40,996 nt of DNA from a virus. Positions 2,809-40,996 of this stretch are shown here, one piece after another. Made by a program: the position numbers and the translations under genes. Numbering within the stretch: position 1 is the first letter of the stretch; each line of letters opens with the position of its first letter. Where the stretch lies: IMG/VR virus record IMGVR_UViG_3300031456_000012, positions 1 to 40,996 of that record; one strand, 5' to 3'. The notes under the pieces were generated by a model. The model was not told the origin of the DNA. It did not search any database and worked only from the letters and a program-made list of their open reading frames with translations.

Positions 2809-3631
2809 GGTCCGCTCCTTCCACGCTCTGGGCGCGATCCAATTCGCCGATTTCCCGCATCACGACTTCGATCACCGCCGCATTTTCAGTCGCGTGGTTG
2901 CGTACCTCGCAGCCGGGATCGCCTACCCGCGTCGCGGTGAACTCGAATTCGGAATGAATGCGCTTGAGGTCGGCGGCGAGCCTGCGTCGGCGCTCGTTGG
3001 CCTGTTCGTCGTCCGCGCGGGGGCGTTGGGCGCGAACCTGGTCCTGGCTTTCCAATTCCCCAGCGGCGATCTTGCGGACCAACTCGACTATTTCAGGCTG
3101 GCGGGCGGTCTCCGCGAGATCGAGGATGCCGTGCAAAATACAGACTGCGGAGGCCGCTGCCGTTGCGTGTCGCTCATTTTCCTCTGGGCGTTCGCGCTGC
3201 CGGCGCACGCAGTTTTGCATCTCATGCTTCGCCACCTCCGCCGCGTCCTCGATCCCGCGCGCATAGTCGCTCTGGGCGCGATATTCGGAGAGGAGGGCGG
3301 GGAGCGCGTCACCTATTTCCCGCCAAGTTTGCGGGTCCATCGTCATCGCCTGCGTTGAATGGTCGCCGAATGTCAGCTCAGCATAATCCGGCGTGTCGCG
3401 TGTCTCGATTGGCAGGATGCGCCCGAATAGCTCCCTGATCCTGTCTATATCGGCATGGGGAGGGGTGGGGCGGTTGTTCCAGGCGGCTGTCGCGATATTT
3501 GGGGAAAGGAAGCCGTCCGAAAAGCTGAGCGGGCATGCTGAGCAATCCACGGAGTAGAATGGCATCGGCTCTCCATCGCTGACGATCTTCATCGCGCCGT
3601 TACAGCGCGGGCATGGCAACAGGTCGGCCAT
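2801..3631 (-). CDS. Lar-like restriction alleviation protein with long extension
   Basis: The first 55 residues carry the Lar-type zinc ribbon: LLPCPRC (C7, C10), DCSAC (C30, C33) and AAWNNR near 49-54. Lar proteins of Rac and related phages relieve type I restriction by modulating EcoK activity. The remaining 220 residues form a charged helical extension not found in short Lar proteins (60-100 aa), with a long Arg/Glu-rich segment at about 195-225. It is joined to the upstream gene by TAATG. The Lar domain call is good; the anti-restriction role is inferred from the family. Confidence 0.75.
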   Translation of the reverse strand: MADLLPCPRCNGAMKIVSDGEPMPFYSVDCSACPLSFSDGFLSPNIATAAWNNRPTPPHADIDRIRELFGRILPIETRDTPDYAELTFGDHSTQAMTMDPQTWREIGDALPALLSEYRAQSDYARGIEDAAEVAKHEMQNCVRRQRERPEENERHATAAASAVCILHGILDLAETARQPEIVELVRKIAAGELESQDQVRAQRPRADDEQANERRRRLAADLKRIHSEFEFTATRVGDPGCEVRNHATENAAVIEVVMREIGELDRAQSVEGADRG

Positions 3632-4380
3632 TATAGGGACTCCGATGGGGGAGAGGGGGAAGGTTGGGCGATGCCTTCGGCCCGCGCTGGTCCGGCTTCG
3701 CCCCGAGCCGAATCTTCGTTCGTCTCGGCCATTCGGGGACCATCGCTATCGCGGAGCGTGGGCGCGTCTTCGTATCGGCTTCCGCGTTGCCCAGGCTCAT
3801 TGCTGGCGGTGCAGGACAGATTGTGATCAGCCCCGTGCGGACAGCGCTTGTTTCCGCACGTCTCGCACAGAAACATGCGCGACAGCCGATTGTGGAGCGG
3901 CGATCGAGCCTCTGGATGCGGGTCTCGCCTCACCAGTGCGCGGGTGCAATTATAGCAGGGGCAAGGATCCACATGGCGGTAGAAGGTTTTGCGTTCCCAG
4001 CCGAGACAGGAAAGCAGGTCGTCGGCGGGGTCTCGCGCGCCACGGAGAAACGACAGCATGGTCTCGTCGCATAGTCCGCAGCCGGCCGCGAACTGCGATG
4101 GCTGTCCCTTCACGGCGAAGCGCGCGCGAATCAGGGCTCGAAGTGCGTCAACATCTTGCCAGACCATCTCGTTGAGGAAGTCCACGACTGTCCAAGCGCC
4201 GTTGCGGTCGGCGAAGGTAGTGGCCTCGCCACTGAACCAGTCGATTAGGAACTGGCGGCGGCGTTCGATGCGCGCCGGATCGAAGCCCGCCAGGGCCGAG
4301 ACTGCCCTTGCAGGCTCGGTCGTAGACGAGAGCCGGTTTGGCGAAGCCACGCGCCCTGAATCTGTGGGCGAACCCATCAT
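3631..4380 (-). CDS. Putative DNA-binding Zn-finger protein, 249 aa
   Basis: The middle part (about 88-130) looks like a Cro-type helix-turn-helix (KGQPSQFAAGCGLCDETML). It is followed by Cys clusters CPCYNC (C140-C145) and CETCGNKRCPHGADH (C172-H186), then SNEPGQ, a motif set common in phage proteins of alphaproteobacteria. Function unknown. Both ends derive from dispersed structured repeats: residues about 9-37 (containing GFDPAR) from the copy at 4271-4356 and the tail (AEGIAQP) from the inverted copy at 3666-3754. ATG 4380 overlaps the upstream stop as ATGA. Confidence 0.75.
   Translation of the reverse strand: MMGSPTDSGRVASPNRLSSTTEPARAVSALAGFDPARIERRRQFLIDWFSGEATTFADRNGAWTVVDFLNEMVWQDVDALRALIRARFAVKGQPSQFAAGCGLCDETMLSFLRGARDPADDLLSCLGWERKTFYRHVDPCPCYNCTRALVRRDPHPEARSPLHNRLSRMFLCETCGNKRCPHGADHNLSCTASNEPGQRGSRYEDAPTLRDSDGPRMAETNEDSARGEAGPARAEGIAQPSPSPPSESL
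3666..3754 (+). repeat. Dispersed structured element, copy 1
   Basis: Begins GGGCGATGCCTTCGGCCC, 18 nt identical to the copy at 7199. Hairpin 1 is GCC-TTC-GGC at 3673-3681. The later part, containing CGTCTCGG and TATCGCGG, aligns with the other copies. It lies on the plus strand, antisense to the gene 3631-4380, and supplies the C-terminal tail of that protein. It faces the inverted copy at 4271-4356. Confidence 0.75.
4271..4356 (-). repeat. Dispersed structured element, copy 2
   Basis: On the minus strand, from GGGCGCG at 4356. Hairpin 1 is TGGC-TTC-GCCA, hairpin 2 has a GGCTC/GAGCC stem, and hairpin 3 is GCCC-TGGC-GGGC. It ends in GGGCTTCGATCC. Very close to the copy at 10578. It starts 24 nt downstream of the ATG at 4380 and encodes the N-terminal GFDPAR peptide of that gene. 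Confidence 0.8.
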
Positions 4381-4787
4381 GCCGCCCTCCCGGCTGCGTC
4401 GATCATGGCCTGCCAATCGCGAACAAGTTCAGCCGCCGCTGTCTCGCCTTGAAAATACTGTTCGACGCGGATCGGCGGAAGGAGCGCCAGCGCTCGCTTC
4501 GCAATGGCGACCTGCTGGCGCGTCGGCTGGGCCGCCATCGGCAGCGTCGCGGCCACCATTTCGGGCGTCGGTTCTCTTGGCACTATGACGTACCCGCCCT
4601 GCTCAATGGCGAGGATGGCGGCGCGGGCATCGCCGAGATACATTTTCGCGCACTCCTCCCAAGGCTCCATGTCCGACGGGATATTCCGGCGGGCCGCGTC
4701 GGATAGAATTTCTGCGGTCTGGCGCTCGCGCTCTGCCTCGCGCCCGTAAAGCGCCCTCGCCGCCAGTTCGATCATCTCGCTACTCAT
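4377..4787 (-). CDS. Hypothetical phage protein, 136 aa
   Basis: A soluble protein with the features of a recurrent but uncharacterised phage family: an N-terminal MIELAARALYG helix, a W-x-E-C-A-x-MYLGDARAAILAIEQGGYVIVP segment (residues about 43-70) and a TPEMV motif. No catalytic motif is apparent. ATG 4787 and the TGA of the upstream gene overlap as ATGA, and its own TGA overlaps the next ATG in the same way. Family recognition rests on the segment around YVIVPREPTPEMV; function unknown. Confidence 0.8.
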   Translation of the reverse strand: MSSEMIELAARALYGREAERERQTAEILSDAARRNIPSDMEPWEECAKMYLGDARAAILAIEQGGYVIVPREPTPEMVAATLPMAAQPTRQQVAIAKRALALLPPIRVEQYFQGETAAAELVRDWQAMIDAAGRAA

Positions 4788-4939
4788 GCCGCTTCACCTT
4801 CATGAACATGTTTGATCCACTCTCCTGTTTTGGGATCGCGGATGATCTCGACATCTCCGGGACGCTTTTCGGTACGCAGCTTGAGCCCTCCGATGGACTT
4901 GCGACCGACGCTGCGGAGATAGGTGCGGTAGCTACGCAT
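4784..4939 (-). CDS. Small basic protein, 51 aa
   Basis: Not recognised. A small basic protein beginning MRSYRTYLRSVGRKSIGGLK and ending KHVHEGEAA, with no membrane segment. The frame is open to 4975, but ATG 4939 overlaps the NinB stop codon by 8 nt (ATGCGTAG), matching the other junctions here. The Arg/Lys-rich N-terminus would suit nucleic acid binding, and it directly follows a recombination gene, but nothing specific can be claimed. Confidence 0.7.
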   Translation of the reverse strand: MRSYRTYLRSVGRKSIGGLKLRTEKRPGDVEIIRDPKTGEWIKHVHEGEAA

Positions 4940-5330
4940 GGGCTTCCTCCTTCGCAGGCTCAGACCACTCGACACCGTGCGCGGCGCCGTAGCTTCCGAT
5001 GAAGTCGATCAGGTCGATCATTTGGGACTTGCTCAGCCGTGAGGATCGGAAGCCGACCGGGAACGGCGCGCCGTCCAGCCCGGTCTCGAATTGCACCGCG
5101 TGGCCGCACGCCGACATAAACAGCGCCTTCCAGACTTCGGGGGTGTGCATCCTCCCGTCAGGCTTGGCCCGCGACACATCGGAGAGCATGGCCCAAAGCT
5201 TGTCGTTCTGCGCCAACGTCCGCTTCTCAGGACGGATGTTCACGATCGCTCGAGGCGGGGCCAGGTCGATCAGCCGGCGCGCCTCGCTACGGGCTTGGGG
5301 GCCGTAGAGGATGATGGTCTGGCCGGTCAT
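4932..5330 (-). CDS. ninB: NinB family recombination protein
   Basis: 132 aa, the usual NinB length. Recognised from RPEKRTLAQNDKLWAMLSDVS at about 33-53, HTPEVWKALFMSACGHAV, and the closing SKSQMIDLIDFIGSYGAAHGVEW. In lambda, NinB (Orf) binds single-stranded DNA and SSB and helps load recombinase, standing in for RecFOR. It lies in an operon with an ERF annealing protein and an HNH-like protein, a coherent recombination module. ATG 5330 overlaps the preceding stop as ATGA. Confidence 0.9.
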   Translation of the reverse strand: MTGQTIILYGPQARSEARRLIDLAPPRAIVNIRPEKRTLAQNDKLWAMLSDVSRAKPDGRMHTPEVWKALFMSACGHAVQFETGLDGAPFPVGFRSSRLSKSQMIDLIDFIGSYGAAHGVEWSEPAKEEAHA

Positions 5331-5710
5331 GGCGCTGCCTGCTTCCTTTCCCACGCGATCCGACCGGGCCAGACGTTCCAGTAAGCGGCGGCAAGCGTAT
5401 CGGCCCGGCGCCCGAGAATGTTCTTCTCGAACCACGGCCAGCCCTTTGAATGCTGAAGGCGGTGGCAGTTGTCCGAGAGGGGAATGTTCCAGCGGTCCGC
5501 TACCTTGCTCGCTGTGCCCTTTGCGTCCCGCGTCCCCTTGGCGGCATAATCGACATGCGCGGCCACCATCGGACCGCCGCAGTCCGCATTGGCCCTACAA
5601 CAGGCGCAGGGGCGCCCTCGGAGCCACTGGCGGAAGGCGTCTGCCACCTTCCACGCGGGGCGCGGCGCGTTTTGCTTGCGAGGCTTGATGGCGGAGCGGG
5701 CGAGCTTCAC
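5327..5710 (-). CDS. HNH-like / DUF968-type nuclease-related protein
   Basis: 127 aa with a metal-binding layout: CACC near 35-38, AAHVD at about 51, and DNCHRLQH at 80-87, followed by W-P-W-F. This Cys-Cys...His...Cys-His...His order resembles DUF968/HNH-like phage proteins that accompany recombination genes. It may nick or process recombination intermediates, but that is inferred. It starts with GTG at 5710, overlapping the upstream TGA as GTGA; the ORF upstream to 5755 is a shadow. Confidence 0.75.
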   Translation of the reverse strand: MKLARSAIKPRKQNAPRPAWKVADAFRQWLRGRPCACCRANADCGGPMVAAHVDYAAKGTRDAKGTASKVADRWNIPLSDNCHRLQHSKGWPWFEKNILGRRADTLAAAYWNVWPGRIAWERKQAAP

Positions 5711-5892
5711 GAAAACACCTCCGCAAACCGCTTCCGATAAGTCTGAGCGGTCCAATAGCAGACCCCGGCCTCATGGGCGGCGCGCTTGAGGCATTCGCCC
5801 TCACGGATGCGCTCAGCGACCCGCCTAGCCCGTTCCCGAGCCTCGCGCCGGTTGGCTTCCGCGCCAAGGCGTCCTCGTTCGGAGAGCGTCAC
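5707..5892 (-). CDS. Small helix-turn-helix protein, 61 aa
   Basis: A strongly basic helical N-terminus (about 1-30) is followed by ECLKRAAHEAGVCYWTAQTYRKRF, which has the spacing of a helix-turn-helix and resembles small phage transposase- or terminase-type HTH domains. GTG 5892 lies 4 nt after the stop of the ERF gene, and its TGA overlaps the next GTG. Probably a DNA-binding accessory of the recombination module; target unknown. Confidence 0.7.
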   Translation of the reverse strand: MTLSERGRLGAEANRREARERARRVAERIREGECLKRAAHEAGVCYWTAQTYRKRFAEVFS

Positions 5893-5896
5893 TTTT

Positions 5897-6631
5897 TCAG
5901 CCTCCGATCAGGGGGTTTTCGCGCCAGTCGCCATTGGCAGCATCGGCGGCGAGTTCGGTTTGCTTCCTCGCAATCACGGTGCCGAGCCCATCGTAAGGCT
6001 CGCCATCCTTCGATCCGCCGCTCCACCAATCGGGAAGGGCCTCTTGGAGCTGCTTGATCAGCGCCGTGTGGCTGGCGAGCAGCGCGTCCAGTTCGCCGGA
6101 ATCGCCGCAGCCTTCGACTTGGCGCCACAGCTCGCGGCCCTGCGTTTTCAGGTCCGTCTTGTTCTTCGCCGGGCCTTGCGGGAATGGGGCATCCTTCGCG
6201 CCGTTGCCGTTGCCGTTGCGATAGTCGTTCGCGGGCGCCGATTTGGACGCAGCGTTGCCGTCGTCGTCTTCCGCAGGCACGCCGAACGCGGTCATGAGAG
6301 CATAGCGGCGACAATAGGTGAGCGCGGAGCCGAAGCCCTGGGCATCCCGCTTGTTGGCCGGGACGTACAGCTTGCCGCAGCTCAGCGTCTCGCCGCCCTG
6401 GTGGTGGATCACCGTCTCGACGCAAACGCCGTCCTCCGCGACGTGCGAGGCTTGCGTGAAGAAGAGATCGTTCGCGATCAAGGCGGGCTTGATGGCATCG
6501 ATCACCGCGCCGAGATCGGCATATTTCGACTTGAAGTGCGGATTGGTCGCGGACTTGGTAGCGCCCTCGATTTCGGCGAATGCTCGCGCCATCGCGGCGG
6601 CGAGGGTGTCAGGCTTGGCAGCGGTGGCCAT
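5897..6631 (-). CDS. erf: ERF family single-strand annealing protein
   Basis: 244 aa. The ERF domain occupies about residues 10-130: MARAFAEIEGATKSATNPHFKSKYADL, then DAIKPALIANDLFFTQA and QGFGSALTYCRRYALMTAFG, all hallmark segments. ERF proteins anneal complementary single strands and support circularisation and recombination of phage DNA independently of RecA. The C-terminal third is a Gly/Asn-rich linker and a variable tail. ATG 6631 follows GGGAGA by seven bases. It is surrounded by NinB, HNH-like and HTH genes. Confidence 0.9.
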   Translation of the reverse strand: MATAAKPDTLAAAMARAFAEIEGATKSATNPHFKSKYADLGAVIDAIKPALIANDLFFTQASHVAEDGVCVETVIHHQGGETLSCGKLYVPANKRDAQGFGSALTYCRRYALMTAFGVPAEDDDGNAASKSAPANDYRNGNGNGAKDAPFPQGPAKNKTDLKTQGRELWRQVEGCGDSGELDALLASHTALIKQLQEALPDWWSGGSKDGEPYDGLGTVIARKQTELAADAANGDWRENPLIGG

Positions 6632-6632
6632 C

Positions 6633-6800
6633 TCAATGTCTCCCTTCGGTATCGAAAGCGCCCTGGTAGGCGGGCAGCAGGTCATCCATGTCGCACCGGC
6701 ATTTGACGCGAGGCTGGAAGCAGAACTGGCAGCCGTCTTCGATCATGTCGGGATCGAGAGGCTGCACGTCGCGGACGAAGGCGTGATCGTTCAGGTTCAC
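6633..6800 (-). CDS. Small Cys-rich protein, 55 aa
   Basis: A gene from GTG 6800 to TGA 6633, one base upstream of the ERF start. Residues 24-36 contain CQFC and, eight residues on, CRC, a probable zinc site, in the context GCQFCFQPRVKCRCDMDD. The GTG overlaps the upstream stop (GTGA), and the ERF ribosome site GGGAGA lies in its last codons, so it is embedded in the operon. Function unknown. Confidence 0.7.
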   Translation of the reverse strand: MNLNDHAFVRDVQPLDPDMIEDGCQFCFQPRVKCRCDMDDLLPAYQGAFDTEGRH

Positions 6801-6985
6801 GGCGCGTCTCCCTCAAATGCCGCGTCCATCTCCGCCTGAGACTTGAAGCCCCACGCGCGGAAATCGAGGCGGCGCGGGCGGATGGTGACGCGCGGCAGGT
6901 CGGTCAGGGCCGTCGCGGCGAAGTTCTCGACGCTCGGCTTTTCGCCAGCGACCAAGCGGTCCTGCCATTTGTCGAAGCCGCTCAT
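6797..6985 (-). CDS. Hypothetical protein, 62 aa
   Basis: Not recognised. Begins MSGFDKWQDRLVAGEKPSVE and has a positively charged central strand (VTIRPRRLDFRAWGFKSQAE). The frame is open to 7273, but that long form is a shadow of other genes; ATG 6985 overlaps the TGA of the upstream membrane-protein gene as ATGA. A cytoplasmic phage accessory protein of unknown role. Confidence 0.7.
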   Translation of the reverse strand: MSGFDKWQDRLVAGEKPSVENFAATALTDLPRVTIRPRRLDFRAWGFKSQAEMDAAFEGDAP

Positions 6986-7185
6986 GATAACAGCATCCAC
7001 ACAGCGAACAGGGCGATGAAGGCGAGGCCGGGTCCGTCGCGGAGAGCGGCGCGCAATGCGGTACTCACCGAAGGCCGAGACGCTCTTGCGGCTCGGGGCG
7101 CAGCCTGAGTGACGCGGTCGGCGAAGCCGATGCGCCCAGCCTTTGTGGCAGTCGAACGATATCGGAGGGCGGAGATGGGGGTCAT
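6982..7185 (-). CDS. Small membrane protein, 67 aa
   Basis: A basic N-terminal region of about 48 residues followed by a single C-terminal hydrophobic segment (PGLAFIALFAVWMLLS), a tail-anchored layout. ATG 7185 overlaps the stop of the upstream gene as ATGA, and its own TGA overlaps the next ATG. Function unknown. A small inner-membrane protein in the early operon could act in host takeover or superinfection exclusion, but there is no direct evidence. Confidence 0.65.
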   Translation of the reverse strand: MTPISALRYRSTATKAGRIGFADRVTQAAPRAARASRPSVSTALRAALRDGPGLAFIALFAVWMLLS

Positions 7186-7673
7186 GCCAGTGGACCTCGG
7201 GCGATGCCTTCGGCCCCGGCTGTCGCGGCTTCGCCGTCCAGCCCGTGCCGGTCTGGCCCCTCCGGGCTTCCATCCGTATCGCGGCTCGCTATTGCGTCGA
7301 GACAGGCGACAAAAATCTCGTCGTCGCCTAGGTGGAAATCCTTCCCCCCAAGCGCCCAGACGGCCCGTTGCTTAGCCACTTGAGCAACCCGCGCGGCGTG
7401 GAAGCACCATGCGCCAGCCTTGACGGCGCCCATTGCGCGCAGGGCGGCGATGGCCGCGTACGCGCCGCGAATATATGGCCAGCGGTCATTATCGGACAGC
7501 CGAAGCCAGACGCCCTCCTTGTCTCGGCAAGACGCAGCGGCAAGCCATAGCGCTCGCGCCACCATCTCCAGACCATCGCGCGAGGGATCGAAGCCGGAAC
7601 GGCCGAGACCTTCTTGGGGCTCGGCTTGCGAGAGCCCGGTGCCGTCAGGCACGCGCCCGGTTTCCGTGTTCAT
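7182..7673 (-). CDS. Hypothetical protein built around paired repeat elements, 163 aa
   Basis: The core (about residues 40-125: MVARALWLAAASCRDKEGVW...YAAIAALRAMGAVK) resembles uncharacterised phage helical proteins. The N-terminal part containing GRVPDGTGLSQAEPQEG and GFDPSR is encoded by the element copy at 7576-7658. The C-terminal part (about 135-163, ending AEGIARGP) is encoded by the inverted copy at 7199-7284. ATG 7673 follows AAGGA and overlaps the upstream TGA. The gene is literally bracketed by two facing copies; function unknown. Confidence 0.75.
   Translation of the reverse strand: MNTETGRVPDGTGLSQAEPQEGLGRSGFDPSRDGLEMVARALWLAAASCRDKEGVWLRLSDNDRWPYIRGAYAAIAALRAMGAVKAGAWCFHAARVAQVAKQRAVWALGGKDFHLGDDEIFVACLDAIASRDTDGSPEGPDRHGLDGEAATAGAEGIARGPLA
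7199..7284 (+). repeat. Dispersed structured element, copy 3
   Basis: Plus strand, from GGGCGATGCCTTCGGCCC (18 nt shared with copy 1). Hairpin 1 is GCC-TTC-GGC. Hairpin 2 has stem GGCTG/CAGCC, as in the copy at 40377. Hairpin 3 is CCC-CTCC-GGG, followed by CTTCCATCC and TATCGCGG. It is antisense to the 3' end of the gene 7182-7673 and inverted relative to copy 4. Confidence 0.8.
7576..7658 (-). repeat. Dispersed structured element, copy 4
   Basis: Minus strand, from GGGCGCG at 7658, 15 nt inside the ATG at 7673. Hairpin 1 is GTGCC-TGAC-GGCAC, hairpin 2 GGGCTC/GAGCCC, hairpin 3 GCC-GTTCC-GGC. It ends GGCTTCGATCCCTCGCGCGA. The pairing is kept with different bases from the other copies. Confidence 0.85.
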
Positions 7674-7870
7674 GCTGCTTTCCTTCTCTGCTTCGGAGCG
7701 AACTGCTCTTTGTGTTCGCGATCCTGTCGTTTCCCCATTTCGAGCATTGCCGCCGTTCGGATCAGCGATGCCCGATGCCTTGCGAACCATGTTGCATCGA
7801 CAGTCAGCCGATAGTGGTCATCGATCCATGTCGTGGCTGCGGCGATATCGGCAGGAGAGGGGCGGATCAT
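7670..7870 (-). CDS. Hypothetical protein, 66 aa
   Basis: Small, basic, helical protein starting MIRPSPADIAAATTWIDDHY with a Lys/Arg-rich C-terminus (FAPKQRRKAA). No known domain. The ORF extends upstream to 7990, but ATG 7870 overlaps the stop of the DUF551-like gene as ATGA and the upstream extension is arginine-rich shadow sequence. Its TGA overlaps the next ATG. Confidence 0.7.
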   Translation of the reverse strand: MIRPSPADIAAATTWIDDHYRLTVDATWFARHRASLIRTAAMLEMGKRQDREHKEQFAPKQRRKAA

Positions 7871-8142
7871 TTGCCGGACTCGGGTGGAGCGGGGAGAGGC
7901 ATCCAGTGGGTCAGGACAAACCCTCCGACTGGGTCCCACCCTCGATCGCCTCGTGTGTACCAACAGGCGTCTTCGCCTTTCCCGCGCCACTTGCAGTCAG
8001 GGATTCGGCCCCATGACCCATCAGCGGTCCAAAGGTCGATTTCCGTCCCATCCTTCGGCGCCGTTTCGATTGGCTGCCATTCGCGGTCCAGCACATTGGC
8101 CGCTTCGATTCCTGACGCGCGCGATTTCCGTGGTCCGTTCAC
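7867..8142 (-). CDS. DUF551-like protein, 91 aa
   Basis: Shows the W-x-PIETAPKDGTEIDLW motif at about 22-38, a central RIPDCKW, and the closing FVLTHWMPLPAPP, which define the DUF551-like family of small phage and prophage proteins of unknown function. Length (about 90 aa) is typical. It starts with GTG at 8142, overlapping the upstream TGA as GTGA. Family assignment is confident, function is not. Confidence 0.85.
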   Translation of the reverse strand: MNGPRKSRASGIEAANVLDREWQPIETAPKDGTEIDLWTADGSWGRIPDCKWRGKGEDACWYTRGDRGWDPVGGFVLTHWMPLPAPPESGK

Positions 8143-8564
8143 AACCCCTCCTGTTGGGAGTCGCCACGAGCGACGCGCGCAAGTCGGCGGAAGTTGTCAG
8201 CGAGGTCCTGAACGTCGCTCCCAAGGCGGTGAAACCATTCATCGCCCTCAGCAATCTGCGCGGCCGTGCCGAAGGCGTCAGCTTGGCCAGCAGAGAACGA
8301 CGGCAGCAGTCGAAGTGGAACGGAGAAAACGACGGCCTCTTCGTACGTCAGATCGGCGGCGCCAAGGACGGCCCAGTTCCCGTCGCCGTAGACGATCAGC
8401 GTCGGCTCGCCAGCATTGCGGCGGGCGATGTCAGCAAGCTCCGCGTTAGCGATGCCATGCTTGCACGAAGACGCCTCTTCGGCGGCTGAGGCCGTAGGCT
8501 GGCTGAGCGACGGCGCGTCAGCGCCGGAACGCCCTAAGTCCTTGATATCCCTCCCCATGGTCAT
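8139..8564 (-). CDS. Hypothetical protein, 141 aa
   Basis: Not recognised. The N-terminal 35 residues (containing GRSGADAPSLSQPTASAAEE) are encoded by a degenerate copy of the dispersed element. The remainder has a SKHGIANAELADIAR-type helix and a strand segment (EPTLIVYGDGNWAVLGA). Two ATGs are possible: 8564 (ATGA overlap with the upstream stop) and 8558. Junctions on both sides follow the NTGA pattern. Confidence 0.75.
   Translation of the reverse strand: MTMGRDIKDLGRSGADAPSLSQPTASAAEEASSCKHGIANAELADIARRNAGEPTLIVYGDGNWAVLGAADLTYEEAVVFSVPLRLLPSFSAGQADAFGTAAQIAEGDEWFHRLGSDVQDLADNFRRLARVARGDSQQEGL
8470..8534 (-). repeat. Dispersed structured element, copy 5 (degenerate)
   Basis: Minus strand, from GGGCG at 8534, 24-30 nt inside the start of the gene 8139-8564. 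Hairpin 1 is GGCGC-TGAC-GCGCC. It then shares a 17-nt run (GGCTGAGGCCGTAGGCT on the plus strand, 8484-8500) with the copy at 40377. The 3' end is poorly conserved. Confidence 0.65.
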
Positions 8565-8896
8565 GACCCGACACGCGCGAGATACTTGGCTTCGACGCGC
8601 GCAAGCCTTTCCTCGAATATCTCCACGGAGCCGCAGTCGAAGGCGTCTTGCAGCCAGACGGCGTCAGCGACTTGATCGGGGGGGATTACGATGCTGCCTT
8701 CATCGCAAAGGGCTCTGACCCTAGCGGCCTGGCCTTCGATCCTCTCTCGCCGCGCCTTGGGCATCATGGACCCGATCGCGCATGGGGCGTCGTAGCGACG
8801 GGGCCTTTCGGGACAGAGCGCCGCCAGCTTCGCCCATTGCTTGCGCACTTTGGGCAGGTCGCGCCTCAGGTCGATTTCAATTGGCTTGGCGGTCAC
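8561..8896 (-). CDS. Hypothetical helical protein, 111 aa
   Basis: Not recognised. Charged helical protein (EIDLRRDLPKVRKQWAKLAA...). The frame is open to 9076, but that would overlap the upstream gene 8946-9161 by 131 nt. No ATG exists between; GTG 8896 follows GGGAG by eight bases and gives a clean start. The stop overlaps the next ATG (ATGA). The start is the least certain part of the call. Confidence 0.7.
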   Translation of the reverse strand: MTAKPIEIDLRRDLPKVRKQWAKLAALCPERPRRYDAPCAIGSMMPKARRERIEGQAARVRALCDEGSIVIPPDQVADAVWLQDAFDCGSVEIFEERLARVEAKYLARVGS

Positions 8897-8945
8897 GATC
8901 TCATCTCCCACAAGGTATATCTCATCATCCCCTCGTCGGGGGTGG

Positions 8946-9161
8946 CTAGGCGGCTTCCTGAGCGCGATGTTCGATCCGGCGCGCGAGGCGCAGAAACTTG
9001 AGGCCGAGATGGCGGGCGCGAGCTGCGGACACGTAGCAACACGTGTTGCCGCGAAGGTCGATCTCGACGTTGTCACCCATTTCGCGAAGAGTTACCTCTC
9101 GGATGGTGGGATTGCTGGCGGTCACGCCGTGAATCTCTCGAACGCCATCGTCGGCCATCAC
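8946..9161 (-). CDS. Hypothetical protein, 71 aa
   Basis: Small protein with a beta-rich N-terminal half (VREIHGVTASNPTIREVTLREMGDNVEIDL) and a basic helix (RARHLGLKFLRLARRIEHRA). No known family. Tandem ATG codons at 9161 and 9158 both fit the upstream TGA, by ATGA or TGATG overlap. Second gene of the PL operon. Confidence 0.7.
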   Translation of the reverse strand: MMADDGVREIHGVTASNPTIREVTLREMGDNVEIDLRGNTCCYVSAARARHLGLKFLRLARRIEHRAQEAA

Positions 9162-9394
9162 GCGGCCTCCGCGACCGGTTCGGCTTCGACAGCCGGGGCG
9201 CAGCTAAACTTGGCGTAGGCACGCAGGACGATGAACTTCTTGCCGGGGTTCAGGCCCGCCAGCCGCGTCGCTTCCTTCTCAGCGCTCTCCGCGTTGTTGT
9301 GCGCGTTGCGCGGCACCCGCCCCTTCTTGGTCCACACGAACCAAAATTCGACCGGCTCCATTTTCAGGCTGGTTTGATCTGCGGGTGCTGACAT
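9158..9394 (-). CDS. First gene of the PL operon, 78 aa
   Basis: Unknown function. Contains VEFWFVWTKKGRVPRNAHNNAESAEKEATRLAGL, an aromatic strand followed by a helix reminiscent of small phage proteins with a WGR- or SPOR-like strand, and an acidic Ala/Glu-rich tail. ATG 9394 is preceded by AGGAGG at seven bases, the strongest ribosome site in the region, as expected for the first gene after the predicted PL promoter. Confidence 0.75.
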   Translation of the reverse strand: MSAPADQTSLKMEPVEFWFVWTKKGRVPRNAHNNAESAEKEATRLAGLNPGKKFIVLRAYAKFSCAPAVEAEPVAEAA

Positions 9395-9416
9395 TCGGGC
9401 CTCCTGTGGAAGCCCT

Positions 9417-9444
9417 GTTGTAACAGATACAACATAGGACGCAA
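9417..9444 (-). promoter_or_regulatory. Predicted PL promoter with overlapping operator
   Basis: On the minus strand: -35 TTGCGT (9439-9444), 16-bp spacer, -10 TACAAC (9417-9422). The operator TTGTATCTGTTACAA occupies 9418-9432 and covers the -10. The arrangement mirrors PR (TTGCAT, 17 bp, TACAAC). Transcription would begin near 9410 and lead into the AGGAGG of the gene at 9394. Confidence 0.65.
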
Positions 9445-9453
9445 GCGCTATTT

Positions 9454-9468
9454 TTGTATCAGGAGCAA
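9454..9468. promoter_or_regulatory. Possible third operator (half-conserved)
   Basis: TTGTATCAGGAGCAA has the same spacing as the two good operators but only the left half-site matches exactly. It lies 22 bp beyond the PL operator, towards the repressor gene. A weak secondary site is possible. Confidence 0.35.
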
Positions 9469-9493
9469 CTTTGTTGCGTGACGGCCGATGGGC

Positions 9494-9814
9494 CTAGTTG
9501 TCGGTGCCGGTGCGGATTAGGGTTTCGGCGACGCTGGCGATCTGGCGGCGGACGCCGGGCTTGGCCCGATCCCAAAGGCTCCAGATCGCTTCCGGCTCAC
9601 TAGGGTTGCGGATCAAAAGACTCGCCGCGTCAATGTTCAGGGCGTCGGCAAGTCTTTCTAGCATCTCCTGATTATAGGGCAAGAGGCCGCGCTCGACTCT
9701 ACTCAGGTTTCCTTTGTCCATGGGGATGCGAGCGGCAAGCTGTTCGAGCGACATATGGCGATGCTGGCGCCACTGGCGGATAAAGGTCAGTCGAAAGCGG
9801 GGCTTCTTCGCCAT
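9494..9814 (-). CDS. XRE-family repressor (CI-like), 106 aa
   Basis: An HTH_3 domain spans about residues 9-65 (FIRQWRQHRHMSLEQLAARI, then DKGNLSRVERG, recognition helix). The C-terminal 40 residues are helical. There is no S24/LexA-type peptidase domain, so induction by RecA-driven self-cleavage is unlikely. It is transcribed away from the Cro-like gene and lies between operator sites on both sides, the position of a lysogeny repressor. I prefer ATG 9814 over 9898, because the longer start lies inside the PR operator. Half-sites TTGTAC and TTGTATC upstream may govern its own promoter. Confidence 0.8.
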   Translation of the reverse strand: MAKKPRFRLTFIRQWRQHRHMSLEQLAARIPMDKGNLSRVERGLLPYNQEMLERLADALNIDAASLLIRNPSEPEAIWSLWDRAKPGVRRQIASVAETLIRTGTDN

Positions 9815-9870
9815 GCCCCATTGTCGCGCGAATCGATACAACGGACGAGCGGCGGCTGTACAACGAAGGC

Positions 9871-9899
9871 TTGCATTCGGGCCTTGTATCACATACAAC
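9871..9899 (+). promoter_or_regulatory. Predicted PR promoter with overlapping operator
   Basis: -35 TTGCAT (9871-9876), 17-bp spacer, -10 TACAAC (9894-9899). The operator TTGTATCACATACAA (9884-9898), a perfect TTGTAT/ATACAA inverted repeat with a 3-bp centre, covers the spacer and -10. Start of transcription is predicted at the ATG of the Cro-like gene (9907), so the mRNA may be leaderless. Confidence 0.65.
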
Positions 9900-9906
9900 C
9901 TCGTTC

Positions 9907-10128
9907 ATGGAGCCTCATGACCGCCTGAAATCCTGGATCGCCGCCGCCAAAATCCCGAACGCCGAAATGGCCCGCCGGGTGAGCTGCGACAAAGGTAATT
10001 TCCACCGCATCCTCAATGGCAAGCTGCGGCCATCGCTCGACATGGCATTGCGGATCGAGCGCGAGACGGCGGGGCTGATCCCGATGTCCGCATGGGCGAA
10101 AGAGGAACCGCAGGAGCGCGCCGCGTGA
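9907..10128 (+). CDS. Cro-like DNA-binding protein, 73 aa
   Basis: Small protein with a helix-turn-helix at about 14-42 (AKIPNAEMARRVSCDKGNFHRILNG), of the YdaS/Cro type. Divergent from the repressor and just downstream of the PR operator, so probably the early antagonist of the repressor. The frame is open to 9871, but that ATG lies in the -35 region; ATG 9907 is seven bases after the predicted -10 and has no ribosome site, consistent with a leaderless message. Confidence 0.8.
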   Translation: MEPHDRLKSWIAAAKIPNAEMARRVSCDKGNFHRILNGKLRPSLDMALRIERETAGLIPMSAWAKEEPQERAA

Positions 10129-10133
10129 ACGCC

Positions 10134-10397
10134 CTATCGCTTCCTCTTGGGCTTCGTCGAGCGGATGCCCTGAGCCGCTTTGTTCTCGGCGTCCCAAGCG
10201 TCGTAGCAGCGGTGCGCCCCTTCCAGCGCGGCCAGATAAATATGCGGCGTGCAGGCGGCCCGATAGACCTTCCCGCCCGAGATGAAGGTGACTGTAAAAA
10301 CGCTGTCGTGTTCGTGAAATTCGGGCGGCACGCGGAGGAACAGAATGGGCGTGTCCGGCTCGTCTCCTCGCTCCGGCTCTCTCTCTCGTCCAGGCAT
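10134..10397 (-). CDS. Hypothetical minus-strand protein in the right early arm, 87 aa
   Basis: Convergent with the Cro-like gene, six bases from its stop. The sequence looks like a genuine soluble protein (TPILFLRVPPEFHEHDSVF, FISGGKVYRAACTPHIYLAALEG) with a very basic tail (TKPKRKR). No family recognised. ATG 10397 has only a distant GGGAG. Because it opposes PR transcription it is probably expressed separately, perhaps in the lysogen. Confidence 0.6.
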   Translation of the reverse strand: MPGREREPERGDEPDTPILFLRVPPEFHEHDSVFTVTFISGGKVYRAACTPHIYLAALEGAHRCYDAWDAENKAAQGIRSTKPKRKR

Positions 10398-10534
10398 AAA
10401 GCATGCACTCCCAAGCCCGACTTGGCCGATTCGGACTTCATTTCGGAGCGTAACCGCACTGTCACAAATGCCAAAGCGGAAATTGCCTTACCTTCTCGCG
10501 CCTTACGGTTGGTCAATTCCGCACAGGCAGCAGC

Positions 10535-10939
10535 ATGAGCGCGTCCGCACAGGGGAGGGGGATAGGCGGTGAAGGCCGGGCGCGCCCTTCGGGACAGGCT
10601 CTCGTCTCCGATGGAGCCCAAGAGGTCTCCACCCTGACGGGCTTCGATCCTTCGCGCGAAGTCAGCAACGACATCGTAGCGCGCCTGCATGGTCGCGCTC
10701 GCTTCAACCGCGACCATGCAGCGATCAAGGACGCGGAGATACAAGAGCAGGCGGCGTTGCAAATCGAGCGCTTGCGCGGCCAAATCGCGGCCGTTCGCTC
10801 CGTCATCCAGCGCGGCTATCCGGACAAAGGACTGCGGCGCGACCAAAGGTGCGAGCATGAGCGCTTCGGCTTCGAAGATTGTATGGGCTGCTACGACGAG
10901 GCGCTGTTGACGGCGCTCGGTTGCGATACGGGAAGCTGA
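10535..10939 (+). CDS. Hypothetical protein with repeat-derived N-terminus, 134 aa
   Basis: Residues about 15-42 (GRARPSGQALVSDG, then GFDPSR) are encoded by a copy of the dispersed element. The rest is a coiled-coil-like helix (AAIKDAEIQEQAALQIERLRGQI) followed by CEHERFGFEDCMGCYDEAL with three Cys and a His. No family recognised. The ribosome site at ATG 10535 is weak. It is the first gene of the rightward block after the regulatory gap 10398-10534, in which I see no convincing promoter. Confidence 0.7.
   Translation: MSASAQGRGIGGEGRARPSGQALVSDGAQEVSTLTGFDPSREVSNDIVARLHGRARFNRDHAAIKDAEIQEQAALQIERLRGQIAAVRSVIQRGYPDKGLRRDQRCEHERFGFEDCMGCYDEALLTALGCDTGS
10578..10659 (+). repeat. Dispersed structured element, copy 6
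   Basis: Plus strand, from GGGCG. Hairpin 1 is CCC-TTC-GGG (10585-10593). Hairpin 2 has stem GGCTC/GAGCC (10597-10601 and 10614-10618), with inner TCG/CGA around a four-base loop. Hairpin 3 is CCC-TGAC-GGG. It ends GGGCTTCGATCCTTCGCGCG. It shares the 16-mer GAGCCCAAGAGGTCTC with copy 8, inverted. Confidence 0.85.
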
Positions 10940-10942
10940 GAT

Positions 10943-11218
10943 ATGCCTACCGCCGCCATCGGTCACATGCCGTTCAAGGGACACCGCACCTGCGCTGAGT
11001 TCGTTTGTATCGGCGGCGAGGTTTATGAGCCTCAACTGACGCGGTCGCACTCGGGCGTCGCTCACCCGCGCCACCCGCAATCCGGCACTGTAGCCGTCGC
11101 GCCGCGCAACCAAGGACGCCCCGCCAAGCCGTCGCGCGCAACCAAGTGCTCGGCCTGTTGTGACTACCGCATCTCCCCCTGCAAATGGGCTCTCTGCCCC
11201 AAGCGGGAGTACGCCTGA
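10943..11218 (+). CDS. Hypothetical Cys-rich protein, 91 aa
   Basis: Not recognised. The C-terminus carries KCSACCDYRISPCKWALCP, five Cys in 17 residues, a likely zinc site. The central part is Pro/Arg-rich and probably disordered. ATG 10943 follows the upstream stop by three bases and its TGA abuts the next ATG. Coding status is supported mainly by these junctions; the long minus-strand ORF over the same region has no plausible start or neighbours. Confidence 0.6.
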   Translation: MPTAAIGHMPFKGHRTCAEFVCIGGEVYEPQLTRSHSGVAHPRHPQSGTVAVAPRNQGRPAKPSRATKCSACCDYRISPCKWALCPKREYA

Positions 11219-11452
11219 ATGTCCCTCCTCTCCCAAGTCCGCGGATTTTTCGGACGGTCCAAGCCGCTCGACAATCCGAGCGACGATCAGCCCGATTGGG
11301 ACGCCTCCTACGACATGCCCGGAATAGGGCTCGTCAGTGAGCGGACGCTGAGGCGGCACGTCGAAATCGCCGAGCCGCGCATCTTCATCATCCTGGATAG
11401 CCCCGTTCATGGGACCAGAAGTAGCGCGAAGGATCAACGGAATCGTGTGTAA
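11219..11452 (+). CDS. Hypothetical protein, 77 aa
   Basis: Not recognised. Begins MSLLSQVRGFFGRSKPLDNP, an amphipathic N-terminal helix followed by an acidic region (DDQPDWDASYDMPG). It starts immediately after the previous TGA and overlaps the next gene by 8 nt (GTGTGTAA) if that gene uses GTG 11445. Confidence 0.6.
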   Translation: MSLLSQVRGFFGRSKPLDNPSDDQPDWDASYDMPGIGLVSERTLRRHVEIAEPRIFIILDSPVHGTRSSAKDQRNRV

Positions 11453-11879
11453 TCTATTCGGCCTCGCACGCAATTCCGTTTCAGCGCAGGAACGCATGTT
11501 CCGGCTTGCCGAGCGCGATCATGGCCTGTCGATCAGAGCGCTGCATCTCGAAACGCGCATCCCGAAAACCACCCTCCAAGGCTGGAAGGACGGGACGACA
11601 ATGCCAGCTTGGGCGCTCGGCGCGCTTGGGCGGGCAGGGGTGCCGGATCACCTGCTGAGCCTCGTTCTGCACCCCTTCGCGCGGCACATCGGAACGGACG
11701 ATAGCGGCGACGGCGCCCTTGACGAACTTGTACGCGAAACGGCCGGATTTACAAGCGATTACCTTGAGGCGACGGCCCCGGATAGCCCTGGCGGAACCAA
11801 CGTCATTCCCATGGAACACGCCAAGCTCGCCGAGCGGGCATTGCGGATCGAGTCGAAGGCTCGGGCGGTGCGGAAGTGA
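11445..11879 (+). CDS. CII-like phage transcription regulator
   Basis: Contains SVSAQERMFRLAERDHGLSI, then HLETRIPKTTLQGWKDGTTMPAWALGALGRAGVPDHLLSLVL, an HTH protein family frequent in alphaproteobacterial temperate phages, where it sits in the cII position downstream of cro. About 144 aa from GTG 11445; ATG 11409 in the same frame is an alternative. The GTG gives the 8-nt overlap typical of this genome. Probably a transcriptional activator or regulator of early genes; target unknown. Confidence 0.75.
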   Translation: MCNLFGLARNSVSAQERMFRLAERDHGLSIRALHLETRIPKTTLQGWKDGTTMPAWALGALGRAGVPDHLLSLVLHPFARHIGTDDSGDGALDELVRETAGFTSDYLEATAPDSPGGTNVIPMEHAKLAERALRIESKARAVRK

Positions 11880-12217: not shown

Positions 12218-12510
12218 CCGCGATAGCGACACTCACCCAGCGGGCGGAGACCGCGCAGACGGGCTCCGTTCATGAGTGGCGCGGGCCTCCAAAGGAGGCA
12301 TCGCCCGACCTGATCGATTACATCCATCTGGACGAGTCAATCGAGGAAGGCTGCTACCGTCATCGCATAGCCCGTAAGGTGCATGGGGAGGCTGTGAAGA
12401 GGGGACAAAGACGGGCGGCCCGCGAGCGGGCAACCTGCTTTCGTGCTTCGCGCCATGCCCTGCTTCGCGGTCATGGCCCTACGGGCTTCAATCAGGCGCA
12501 AATACGGTGA
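12214..12510 (+). CDS. Hypothetical basic protein, 98 aa
   Basis: Not recognised. Highly basic (RHRIARKVHGEAVKRGQRRAARERA), possibly nucleic-acid binding or a decayed gene. The first 30 residues are read through an antisense copy of the dispersed element. Kept as a gene only because both its GTG (GTGA overlap) and its TGA (overlap with GTG 12507) fit the operon; composition alone would not convince. Confidence 0.45.
   Translation: MTAIATLTQRAETAQTGSVHEWRGPPKEASPDLIDYIHLDESIEEGCYRHRIARKVHGEAVKRGQRRAARERATCFRASRHALLRGHGPTGFNQAQIR
12218..12306 (-). repeat. Dispersed structured element, copy 7
   Basis: Minus strand, from GGGCGAT at 12306. Hairpin 1 is GCCTCC-TTT-GGAGGC, six perfect pairs. It shares 17 nt (GACCGCGCAGACGGGCT on the plus strand, 12249-12265) with the copy at 38507 and ends TCGCTATCGCGG like copy 1. 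It faces copy 6 at a distance. Confidence 0.75.
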
Positions 12511-13211
12511 GCGCGCTCTACGGTTTCACGCTAGCCGACTTTGGCATTTACGATCAAGAAAGCGTGCTAATCGAGCATTGCTTCCGAGACGAACGCAACG
12601 GCACGGCGATCCTGTCGAAGCCCGCGAACGACAATGAAGAGCCTGAATTCCGGCACCTCCTTGTCTGGCGCTGGAATTCCGAGCTCCCGATCCTTTACGT
12701 CATCATGCTCAATCCGAGCGTGGCGCGGGCCTTCGTTGACGACCAGACCATGAAGAAGGTCATTCAGTTCGCGCGGCAGAACGGCTTCGGAGGTGTCGCC
12801 GTCGCCAACCTCTCGGACTGGCGCTCAACCAATCAGACGGTCGCAAAGAAGCGCGGCTGGCCAAAGAGCCGCCACTGTTCGCCGATCATCCGCGCCTTCA
12901 TTGAGCACGTCCCGGCAGGCGAGCGGCGCACGATCCTGCTCGCATGGGGAAACGGCGGGCCGCCGCTTTCGGGCTGGCTGACGGGCCGCTCAAAGTCGCC
13001 GAACGCCCGTTTCGTCACGTTGGGCATAACCAAGCCGGGCAGGCCCGAACATCCTTGCATGATCGGCTATGACCGGCGGTTTCAGGAAGCGGCTTCCTCC
13101 AGCGATAGCCGATTGAAGCGCGAAGCGGCGAGACCTCTTGGGCTCGATCCGCAGGACGAAAGCGGCGGTGCCGGAACGGCAATCGCCCAACCCTTTGGGA
13201 AGTCATCATAA
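12507..13211 (+). CDS. DUF1643 family protein, 234 aa
   Basis: Recognised from LLVWRWNSELPILYVIMLNPSVARAFVDDQT at about 50-80, GVAVANLSDWRSTN, ILLAWGNGG, and VTLGITKPGRPEHPC. DUF1643 proteins are found in phages and mobile elements; their biochemical role is not established. The last 35 residues (REAARPLGLDP, AIAQPFGKSS) come from an antisense copy of the dispersed element and lie outside the DUF. It starts with GTG at 12507 (GTGA) and links to rusA by TAATG. Confidence 0.85.
   Translation: MSALYGFTLADFGIYDQESVLIEHCFRDERNGTAILSKPANDNEEPEFRHLLVWRWNSELPILYVIMLNPSVARAFVDDQTMKKVIQFARQNGFGGVAVANLSDWRSTNQTVAKKRGWPKSRHCSPIIRAFIEHVPAGERRTILLAWGNGGPPLSGWLTGRSKSPNARFVTLGITKPGRPEHPCMIGYDRRFQEAASSSDSRLKREAARPLGLDPQDESGGAGTAIAQPFGKSS
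13113..13188 (-). repeat. Dispersed structured element, copy 8
   Basis: Minus strand, from GGGCGAT at 13188, 23 nt from the stop of the DUF1643 gene. Hairpin 1 is TGCCG-TTC-CGGCA. Hairpin 2 has stem CCGC/GCGG. Then comes GAGCCCAAGAGGTCTC (13130-13145), identical to copy 6 in opposite orientation. Confidence 0.75.
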
Positions 13212-38159: not shown

Positions 38160-38240
38160 GGGCGCATCCTTCGGACCGCGTGCTATGGCTTCGCCACGGA
38201 GCCAGCTTCGCCGTCTCCGCCCATCCGGGTAACGCCCGCT
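38160..38240 (+). repeat. Dispersed structured element, copy 9
   Basis: Plus strand, from GGGCGCA. Hairpin 1 is TCC-TTC-GGA (38167-38175). Inner stem of hairpin 2 is TGGC-TTC-GCCA, then GTCTCCGCCCATCCGGG aligning with the third hairpin. It is antisense to the 3' end of the gene 38183-38476 and faces copy 10. Confidence 0.7.
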
Positions 38241-38476
38241 TGCGCAGCGACCTCTCTTCCCAGCTCGGTCAGCTTCACCCTCGTCCCGTCTCGATCCTCT
38301 TCCTCGCTGAAGCCAGTTAGAAGGCCAGGAAACTTCTTGTTGATGAAGAACAGCGAAAAGGGGTTTGGCGACGGGCCCCATCTAACATCGACGCCGCGCT
38401 CTCCGCTCTTGGCGACCTCCACGAGCTGCTCAAGCTGGAACGAGTTAAGGGCTATAGCGATGTCTTCGGCGGTCAT
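38183..38476 (-). CDS. Hypothetical protein, 97 aa
   Basis: Not recognised. Helical N-terminus (TAEDIAIALNSFQLEQLVEVAKSG) and a winged-helix-like segment (FPGLLTGF, TRVKLTELGREVAAQAG) that suggests a small DNA-binding fold of the MarR type. The last 20 residues are read through copy 9 of the dispersed element. GGAG lies seven bases before ATG 38476. Confidence 0.7.
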   Translation of the reverse strand: MTAEDIAIALNSFQLEQLVEVAKSGERGVDVRWGPSPNPFSLFFINKKFPGLLTGFSEEEDRDGTRVKLTELGREVAAQAGVTRMGGDGEAGSVAKP

Positions 38477-38485
38477 AATCCACTC

Positions 38486-38623
38486 CTAGCGAAAGTCGGG
38501 CGAAACGCGAAGCGCCAAGACCGCGCAGACGGGCTTGGTCCGAAGGATGAGCACGCGGTGACGCTCGCCCCAAGCGAGCGGCATTCGCCCTGATCCTGTG
38601 GCCATCCTCCTTGTGTACCTCAT
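38486..38623 (-). CDS. Small repeat-derived ORF, 45 aa
   Basis: ATG 38623 overlaps the stop of the next upstream gene (ATGA). The product (MRYTRRMATGSGRMPLAWGE, then KPVCAVLALRVSPDFR) is mostly encoded by copy 10 of the dispersed element. It may be translated, but it is probably not a conserved functional protein. Confidence 0.4.
   Translation of the reverse strand: MRYTRRMATGSGRMPLAWGERHRVLILRTKPVCAVLALRVSPDFR
38507..38590 (-). repeat. Dispersed structured element, copy 10
   Basis: Minus strand, from GGGCG at 38590. Hairpin 1 is CGCTCGC-TTGGG-GCGAGCG, seven pairs. It shares 17 nt with copy 7 (GACCGCGCAGACGGGCT, plus strand 38519-38535) and ATCCTTCGGACC with copy 9. Together with copy 9 it brackets the gene 38183-38476. 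Confidence 0.75.
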
Positions 38624-40367: not shown

Positions 40368-40875
40368 GGCCCTCACCGCGCGAGGGATGCGACTCAGCGA
40401 AGCCCTCTTGGGCTGAGGCCGTAGGCTCGCAGCCCGGTCGGTTTGCCGACGCGCCCGAATAGGGTCGGTCACCCCCCGACATTATCCCCCTCCCCAGGCC
40501 TATCAGCGGGGTAATGCTATCTAGGGCTCGCCGCGCTATCTGTCCTCGATCCGCCGCTAGAATGGGGAGCGTGCCGGGGCCGTCCCTGAAAGCGAGCGCC
40601 GCATAAATGTCTTCACTGGCATAGAAGGACAGTGCATCTCGCGCCAATTTCAAGGAGCCCTCCGCTTCCTCCAGTATATCCTCTCGGCTATTCGAGGCGT
40701 TGAGGGCTGCATGGGCGCAAGCGGTTCCGAACACGATATGCGACTTGCTAATGCCGTCGATCACGTCATCGGGAAGCCGGTCCAGCATTTGCTTTCGCAC
40801 AGCCAGGGCGATGGCACGATACGGCTCAAGCTGCTTGTCCGCCAGCGCGTCGGCCAGTTCTTGCTCAAACGACAT
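40357..40875 (-). CDS. Hypothetical helical protein, 172 aa
   Basis: Helical protein with IVFGTACAHAALNASNSREDILEEAEGSLKLARDALSFYA in the middle; no family recognised. GAGAGG precedes ATG 40875, which is position 6 of the circle, so the gene continues the leftward operon across the join. The last 30 residues (containing ANRPGCEPTASAQEGFAESH) are encoded by copy 11 of the dispersed element. Confidence 0.8.
   Translation of the reverse strand: MSFEQELADALADKQLEPYRAIALAVRKQMLDRLPDDVIDGISKSHIVFGTACAHAALNASNSREDILEEAEGSLKLARDALSFYASEDIYAALAFRDGPGTLPILAADRGQIARRALDSITPLIGLGRGIMSGGDRPYSGASANRPGCEPTASAQEGFAESHPSRGEGHDG
40377..40456 (-). repeat. Dispersed structured element, copy 11
   Basis: Minus strand, from GGGCGCG at 40456. 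Hairpin 1 is GTCGG-CAAA-CCGAC. Hairpin 2 is GGGCTG/CAGCCC, a base-pair swap relative to copy 4 (GGGCTC/GAGCCC). It ends CATCCCTCGCGCG. It lies 10 nt upstream of the excisionase-like start codon. Confidence 0.8.
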
Positions 40876-40996
40876 TGCCTGCCTCTCTCGCTATTTGGTC
40901 AGTGGGCGTCATGGCCGGTCCTTCTTGCTGAATTGTGGTTCACCGTGCCGGACCTTGATTTCGACGCCTTCAGCCGCGAGGAGATCGAACAGGCCT
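40870..40996. repeat. Right copy of 127-bp terminal direct repeat
   Basis: Exact copy of bases 1-127; see the left copy. Its start includes the ATG of the gene at 40875, and its remainder repeats the 3' end of the 74-aa gene. Confidence 0.95.

Follow-up and report, generated by a model that had tools for sequence, protein, structure and literature searches.

A covarying cloverleaf element brackets accessory genes in phages and may mark the borders of exchangeable cassettes

The window, by which we mean the whole stretch of 40,996 nt analyzed here, is a temperate tailed phage of ~41 kb. It encodes an integrase (39115-40197) and an ERF protein (5897-6685), as well as the NinB recombination protein, a terminase, a portal protein, and a major head protein. 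The contig ends share an exact direct repeat of 127 nt (1-127 = 40870-40996), and the genome is thus circular or circularly permuted and probably complete.

Along this genome, a covariance model finds twelve copies of one element (E 3e-12 to 3e-5), each with a GGGCG end (Table 1). Named by the coordinate of that end, they are 3666+, 4356-, 7137-, 7199+, 7658-, and 10578+, followed by 12306-, 12413+, 13188-, 38160+, 38590-, and 40456-. A sequence-only reading of the same DNA had counted 11 copies and given their orientations as + - + - - + - - + - -; the count was one short, and the order observed is + - - + - + - + - + - -. Its central description nevertheless holds: the gene at 7182-7673 lies between two facing copies, 7199-7282 (+) and 7578-7658 (-), with both GGGCG ends pointing outward. 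The two further brackets that it listed, 3666+/4356- (around the gene at about 3631-4380) and 38160+/38590- (around the gene at 38183-38476), are real as well, and it had missed two, namely 12413+/13188- around a DUF1643 gene and the wider 10578+/12306-. In the gene at 7182-7673 the ATG lies outside the sense element, which begins 15 nt after the start of the ATG, and the stop lies outside the antisense element, ending 17 nt past it and overlapping the next ATG (ATGA). As a side observation, the protein encoded at 2801-3631 (-), which adjoins the bracket 3666-4356, gives a sub-threshold match to the restriction alleviation protein Lar (E 2e-5).

Table 1. Copies of the element and associated genes in the window
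Feature	Position	Strand	Remarks
Bracketed gene, no family match	3631..4380	-	
Element, antisense, 3' end of gene 3631-4380	3666..3752	+	77.8 bits, E 3e-12
Element, sense, 5' end of gene 3631-4380	4270..4356	-	56.5 bits
Next operon gene, 67 aa, start in ATGA overlap, own sense element	6982..7185	-	
Element, sense, in N-terminal part of ORF 6982-7185	7051..7137	-	69.5 bits
Bracketed gene, 163 aa, no family match	7182..7673	-	ATG at 7673, stop at 7182
Element, antisense, 3' end of gene 7182-7673, P1 type GCGAT/ATCGC	7199..7282	+	59.8 bits, E 6e-9
Element, sense, 5' end of gene 7182-7673, P1 type GCGCG/CGCGC	7578..7658	-	70.3 bits, E 8e-11
Element, sense, in N-terminal part of ORF 10535-10939; left copy of wide bracket	10578..10657	+	57.2 bits
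Element, right copy of wide bracket with 10578	12220..12306	-	72.5 bits; DNA fold z -3.3
Element, sense, immediately before gene 12507-13211	12413..12499	+	39.5 bits, E 3e-5
Bracketed gene, DUF1643 family	12507..13211	+	
Element, antisense, 3' end of gene 12507-13211	13102..13188	-	55.5 bits
Element, antisense, encodes C-terminus of gene 38183-38476	38160..38245	+	68.6 bits
Bracketed gene, 97 aa, without family match; start close behind sense element, after AGGAG	38183..38476	-	
Element, sense, 5' leader of gene 38183-38476	38489..38590	-	52.1 bits
Element, sense, solo, near start of ORF 40083-40472	40378..40456	-	41.3 bits, E 1e-5

A blastn comparison of a single window copy with phage records returned chance matches only, and a consensus and a covariance model were needed. 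Stem-based patterns taken from the window copies picked up 63 stretches among viral contigs, of which many proved true, and 38 copies were aligned and scanned for covarying column pairs, the covariance model being built afterward. The family now comprises 390 copies of ~86 nt in 159 loci, mostly IMG/VR phage contigs. Sampling of the viral contigs was biased, as they were found via exact patterns for the element, so that the number of copies per phage is no estimate for phages in general. Related copies occur in genomes of Novosphingobium, Sphingomonas, Bradyrhizobium, and Pelagerythrobacter and in one Sphingopyxis phage. With strict filters, which make these counts lower bounds, copies were present in 11 of 190 genomes of Alphaproteobacteria and 6 of 200 of Pseudomonadota, a rarity that suggests an element belonging to mobile elements. 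No Rfam 15 family match covers any copy, and a permissive Rfam scan of window positions 3500-11500 gave only weak matches, none of them on an element. An earlier description of the element in phages was not found in the literature searched (most subscription papers were outside our reach); as far as we could find, the family is previously undescribed.

The copies share a cloverleaf fold. A stem P1, formed by positions 3-7 and the last five positions, closes the structure, inside which lie a hairpin P2, directly after the first strand of P1, and a stem P3 carrying the hairpins P4, P5, and P6. P1 is fully Watson-Crick paired in 351 of the 390 copies, even though its inner two pairs come in at least nine complementary versions. 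In the 38-copy alignment made before any model, 90.4% of the cells pair, with a covariation of 0.400 against 0.097 in shuffled alignments. For 150 aligned copies the corresponding values are 92.8% and 0.494 against 0.114 (sd 0.006); both sides have changed in 723 cells, compared with 223 in shuffles, and versions of the structure that were slid along the alignment reach a covariation of at most 0.07. The smaller test is the cleaner one, because the larger alignment was fitted to the model. Folding energies of single DNA copies range from z -0.1 to -3.3, nothing remarkable in most cases and not decisive, so the argument for the fold rests on covariation. A pyrimidine mismatch is conserved in P3, with two further mismatches and one G-T pair in roughly half of the copies. 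Where alignment columns 47-49 face 105-107, one variant of this stem has five Watson-Crick pairs; in the other, two pairs are combined with two pyrimidine mismatches and a G-T that is conserved and is the one wobble commonly tolerated in the fold.

Elsewhere, wobble pairs are nearly missing: G-U occurs in 6 of 2099 cells of P1, P2, P5, and P6, and A-C in 3. RNA families normally tolerate G-U. Sense and antisense copies are paired equally well (98.9% versus 98.5% Watson-Crick). From these two observations we infer that what is constrained is DNA, or both strands, with the DNA level the probable one; that the cloverleaf forms in DNA in the cell is likewise an inference. A riboswitch or leader RNA as the sole explanation was rejected on the same grounds, the antisense copies being equally conserved and G-U almost absent.

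The facing arrangement seen in the window exceeds chance. Of 126 neighboring pairs in the 159 loci with a spacing of 150-1000 nt, 87 converge, their GGGCG ends to the outside (P=4e-25), and for spacings of 150-300 nt the count is 34 of 39. Nine of the ten pairs less than 150 nt apart are divergent (e.g., 7137-/7199+ in the window), which fits cassettes lying side by side, and only one such pair is convergent, so empty brackets are rare. In 75 of the 87 brackets, a single ORF takes up 80% or more of the interior. It starts either shortly outside the sense copy after a ribosome site, in which case the copy encodes the N-terminus, or just inside it after an AGGAG-like site. Its stop falls 0-60 nt beyond the antisense copy in 51 of 75 cases, often in an ATGA overlap with the next gene. 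Gene starts were called with a simple script; the same layout is seen, independently of our own ORF calls, in the annotated gene_19 of Sphingopyxis phage VSN-002 and in one gene of Microcystis phage Mvi-Yong1342-1.

The elements are translated, and unrelated bracketed proteins therefore share terminal peptides (GRVPxxTGLSQAEPxxGLGPSGFDPSR and AIEARRAETxxGSVHESAVxxxAP). The version of P1 also tracks reading frame and position, N-terminal sense copies favoring CG, CT, and TT and antisense copies AT, CA, and TC. Both copies of one bracket share their version in only 2 of 75 cases (L004-L271 plus the window), where 8 are expected, and the two elements of a bracket are altogether no more alike than random copies. 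The bias in P1 versions may come in part from avoidance of stop codons (CTAGCGC is found in the frame where TAG goes unread); the remainder is unexplained.

The cargo is diverse. Most of 54 bracketed proteins compared with Pfam had no match, and those that did comprise C5-, N4/N6-, and Dam methyltransferases, DUF1643, dCMP deaminase, HNH, Fic, and helix-turn-helix proteins. Since the recognized cargo includes several methyltransferases, new anti-restriction genes are likely among the unrecognized part. No close relatives of the window ORF 7182-7790 were found in viral contigs, so the replacements described below come from other phages of the same kind and not from 7182-7673 itself.

We compared 250 nt on the outer and 250 nt on the inner side of 348 copies. 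The outer flank was similar and the interior unrelated in 13 pairs, both sides were similar in 11, and the interior alone in 2. As alignments of the element only inflate the counts of breaks, at least 50 nt of non-element sequence was required. With the outer side aligned, 21 alignments end within 10 nt of the inner foot, against 3.4 expected for random positions; the mirror image, an end at the outer foot with the inner side aligned, was seen 0 times against 3.3 expected, and there is no excess of breaks inside the element. The inner-foot excess is partly due to the element's own conservation carrying alignments across, and the missing mirror signal makes it unlikely that this is the whole cause.

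In L107 versus L163, both outer flanks and both elements can be aligned, similarity breaks off no more than 1 nt from the inner foot at either end, and the interiors are 544 and 310 nt of unrelated sequence. Breaks of this type, in which the outer flank and the whole element are kept and similarity ends at or a few bases from the element's end, also occur in L098/L127/L143, L125/L169, and L100/L232. In a second type (L106/L161, L005/L202, and L234/L256), the outer flank is kept to about the outer foot, and the element differs along with the interior. One slot holds three different cassettes in L176, L190, and L006. In two slots, an element-free gene takes the place of a cassette (L229, with the cassette in L239, and L128, with the cassette in L235), so the elements are not needed for exchange. 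These swaps amount to only about ten independent cases, partly from related samples, and the element-bearing phages are highly mosaic throughout. The sequence-only reading had suggested cassettes that moved, or were exchanged, through the repeats. Exchange is supported by these flank-conserved swaps in other phages, and self-movement in the manner of a transposon is not. The outcome that would have spoken against the proposal, relatives holding on to the same genes throughout and neither gaining nor losing any at the elements, is not what is seen.

The element is not confined to phages. A consensus copy matches 555 plasmid records, mostly from Klebsiella, Enterobacter, and Citrobacter. Plasmid F (NC_002483) has two copies in its leading (first-entering) region, at 58091-58172 and 63479-63560 (L155:8092-8173, 13480-13561), on the upstream edge of two repeated blocks, one before ssb and the other before genes near 64.0 kb. 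Of the known single-strand promoters of this region, Frpo2 lies upstream of ssb and Frpo1 upstream of ygeA/ygeB (PMC9849209). Three copies lie among the ccg/ard genes of the R46 leading region (L273:22080-22164, 23791-23880, and 26296-26385, the third weak with E 8e-4), and the Klebsiella plasmid p72_4 has three as well. In F, p72_4, and R46, all copies of a plasmid share one orientation and there are no brackets; the solo copies of F and R46 stand at the head of anti-restriction modules. The plasmids add the P1 versions GCGAC/GTCGC and GCATT/AATGC. No copy was found in ColIb-P9 (IncI1), of which 20-60 kb was searched. We found no account of the F/R46 leading-region element as a separate fold. 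A Bradyrhizobium frederickii contig (NZ_SPQS01000026; L149) carries five copies on one strand, a layout that resembles that of the plasmids more than the phage brackets.

Taken together, we read the elements as folded-DNA boundaries of exchangeable gene cassettes, to which we give a probability of roughly 0.6. A cassette would consist of one accessory ORF with a sense copy on its 5' side, as leader or first codons, and an antisense copy on its 3' side, and would occupy a slot in an operon, with the upstream ribosome site and start region and the next gene start lying outside the cassette. When two phages recombine in one host, the slot may receive another ORF body, with a break at the inner foot, or a whole cassette, with a break near the outer foot. 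The fold is presumed to form in DNA, probably in single strands arising from phage recombination or replication, and to help or limit general recombination. Solo copies in plasmid leading regions may head modules similarly. Comparison itself demonstrates the fold (through covariation), the bracketing, the frames that stay open through the elements, the replacement of bracketed genes with breaks at the feet, and the plasmid copies; why the fold is kept and what selective benefit it brings are matters of inference.

The same is true of the enzyme and of the recombination route. Of 23 element-bearing records, 11 encode ERF, 9 encode NinB, and 18 encode a tyrosine recombinase of the general phage integrase family (the search covered this general family, not IntI specifically). 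Among the enzymes searched for in these 23 records, none is common to all. This is a point against the cassette-boundary reading; as to the route, it favors general annealing or homologous recombination; exchange would then proceed by strand annealing or homologous recombination of the Erf or host RecA type, without a dedicated enzyme. A host enzyme acting on the folded strand cannot be excluded. The strands of P1 lie at opposite feet, and a crossover inside an element would often mismatch its halves. Mismatches are almost never seen, which counts against the simple model, and so either chimeras are removed by selection or the events take place at the feet.

The best-surviving alternative is a cis-regulatory one, although we consider it rather unlikely. 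Here, the fold would act in the expression of the accessory genes, either within the mRNA leader or in the DNA that RNA polymerase reads, as in plasmid leading regions, and the boundaries would be a by-product of selection for a working element by each new gene. In agreement with such a role, sense copies occupy the first codons or a 5' leader running straight into AGGAG-ATG, and solo copies head leading-region modules in F, p72_4, and R46, within blocks that contain Frpo or sit among CUP-controlled genes (PMC9849209, PMC11541004). Half of the bracket copies, however, are antisense at the 3' end and equally conserved, and the near absence of G-U pairs would be unusual for an RNA element. An upstream promoter motif was not consistent, and no consensus emerged, among 144 copies, the element itself being GC-rich, and the F copies lie ~300 nt from the AT-rich hairpin taken as the promoter.

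More doubtful still is a dedicated site-specific system that recognizes the folded single strand, cuts at the foot of P1, and moves cassettes, its enzyme being host-encoded or unrecognized. Precedents for recognition of structure exist in the integron integrase on attC and in XerCD on folded CTX phage DNA. A structure conserved in place of sequence, breaks at the feet and not inside, and inverted pairs and side-by-side arrays recalling Xer-recognized dif modules are all in keeping with this. On the other side, none of the 390 copies contains an attC core or dif site, the 23 records lack a Y1 transposase and their tyrosine recombinases are of the general phage type, and the same cassette body is hardly ever seen in two slots (the two interior-only pairs). 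A composite-transposon-like origin, with the elements as terminal inverted repeats, has little beyond the inverted pair around cargo in its favor and is hardly tenable, given 0 target-site duplications in 87 brackets, paired ends that share a P1 type less often than expected, and no transposase, whether as bracketed cargo or shared by the phages; in its simple form, as transposon terminal inverted repeats, it is refuted by the unlike ends and the missing duplications.

Several known systems resemble parts of the picture. The dif modules of Acinetobacter plasmids consist of one gene or a pair of genes between inverted XerC/XerD pdif sites; a replicon holds several of them, and their contents are exchanged between replicons (PMC6449649). 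The facing copies around phage genes are similar, but the element is GC-rich and far from a short XerC/XerD site, and its fold is kept rather than its sequence; the 28-bp dif consensus had no window match within 3 mismatches and reached at best 16 of 28 positions among the 390 copies. With integron attC, the element shares a structure-conserved, sequence-variable DNA fold and cassettes of diverse accessory genes, whereas attC provides one site per cassette in one orientation, not two facing copies per gene; attC cores (RYYYAAC/GTTRRRY) occur in 0 of 390 copies. The REP/REPIN signature is equally lacking, with GTAG 5' of the hairpin in 6 of 390 copies and Y1_Tnp in 0 of 23 records, and near-identical terminal inverted repeats with target-site duplication, as in composite transposons or MITEs, were not found in the 87 brackets.

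With the Frpo/ssi single-strand promoters of F and the CUP elements of IncN plasmids, the element shares its neighborhood: the repeated F blocks that it borders contain Frpo1 and Frpo2, and its three R46 copies lie among CUP-controlled genes. Frpo function rests on a hairpin with -10 and -35 boxes (PMC9849209); the phage copies, in contrast, are short and GC-rich, occur in both orientations, and bracket genes. The CUP element of IncN plasmids is a repeat upstream of leading-region genes, with promoters bound by ArdK/ArdR. The SAS/ESAS sequences of cluster K mycobacteriophages also occur in many copies per genome beside the start codons of small genes, their function being unknown (PMC3203893). 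Unlike our element, SAS lie nearly all in one orientation without bracketing genes, and ESAS are 17-bp inverted repeats of conserved sequence. A final likeness is to the boundary or linker sequences of lambdoid mosaics, where conserved module borders allow swaps of non-homologous modules. Those are plain conserved sequences, whereas here a covarying fold is kept and breaks occur at its feet. Efficient recombination of diverged sequences has been described for lambda Red (PMC2327257).

If the cassette-boundary reading is right, it gives gene mosaicism in one large phage group a testable physical basis of defined slots and boundaries, in which the fold can be broken and restored through compensatory mutation. 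It also ties phage cassette boundaries to a structured repeat that has been overlooked in the F/R46 leading regions, where it lies beside anti-restriction genes and single-strand promoters. Should exchange prove to be ordinary homologous recombination, what is new shrinks to a variant of a module-linker sequence. A wider generalization remains speculative, though possible: a mobile-element cassette system, common to dsDNA phages of Alphaproteobacteria and to conjugative plasmids that enter single-stranded, in which a cloverleaf of single-stranded DNA marks gene slots, a host-encoded enzyme cuts or switches at the foot of the closing stem, and anti-restriction and other early genes are swapped. 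With the sequence model, unknown genes lying in brackets can be found in large numbers. The terminal peptides that their products share through the elements (e.g., window 7185-7673 and L123:6296-6715) could mislead homology searches and annotation.
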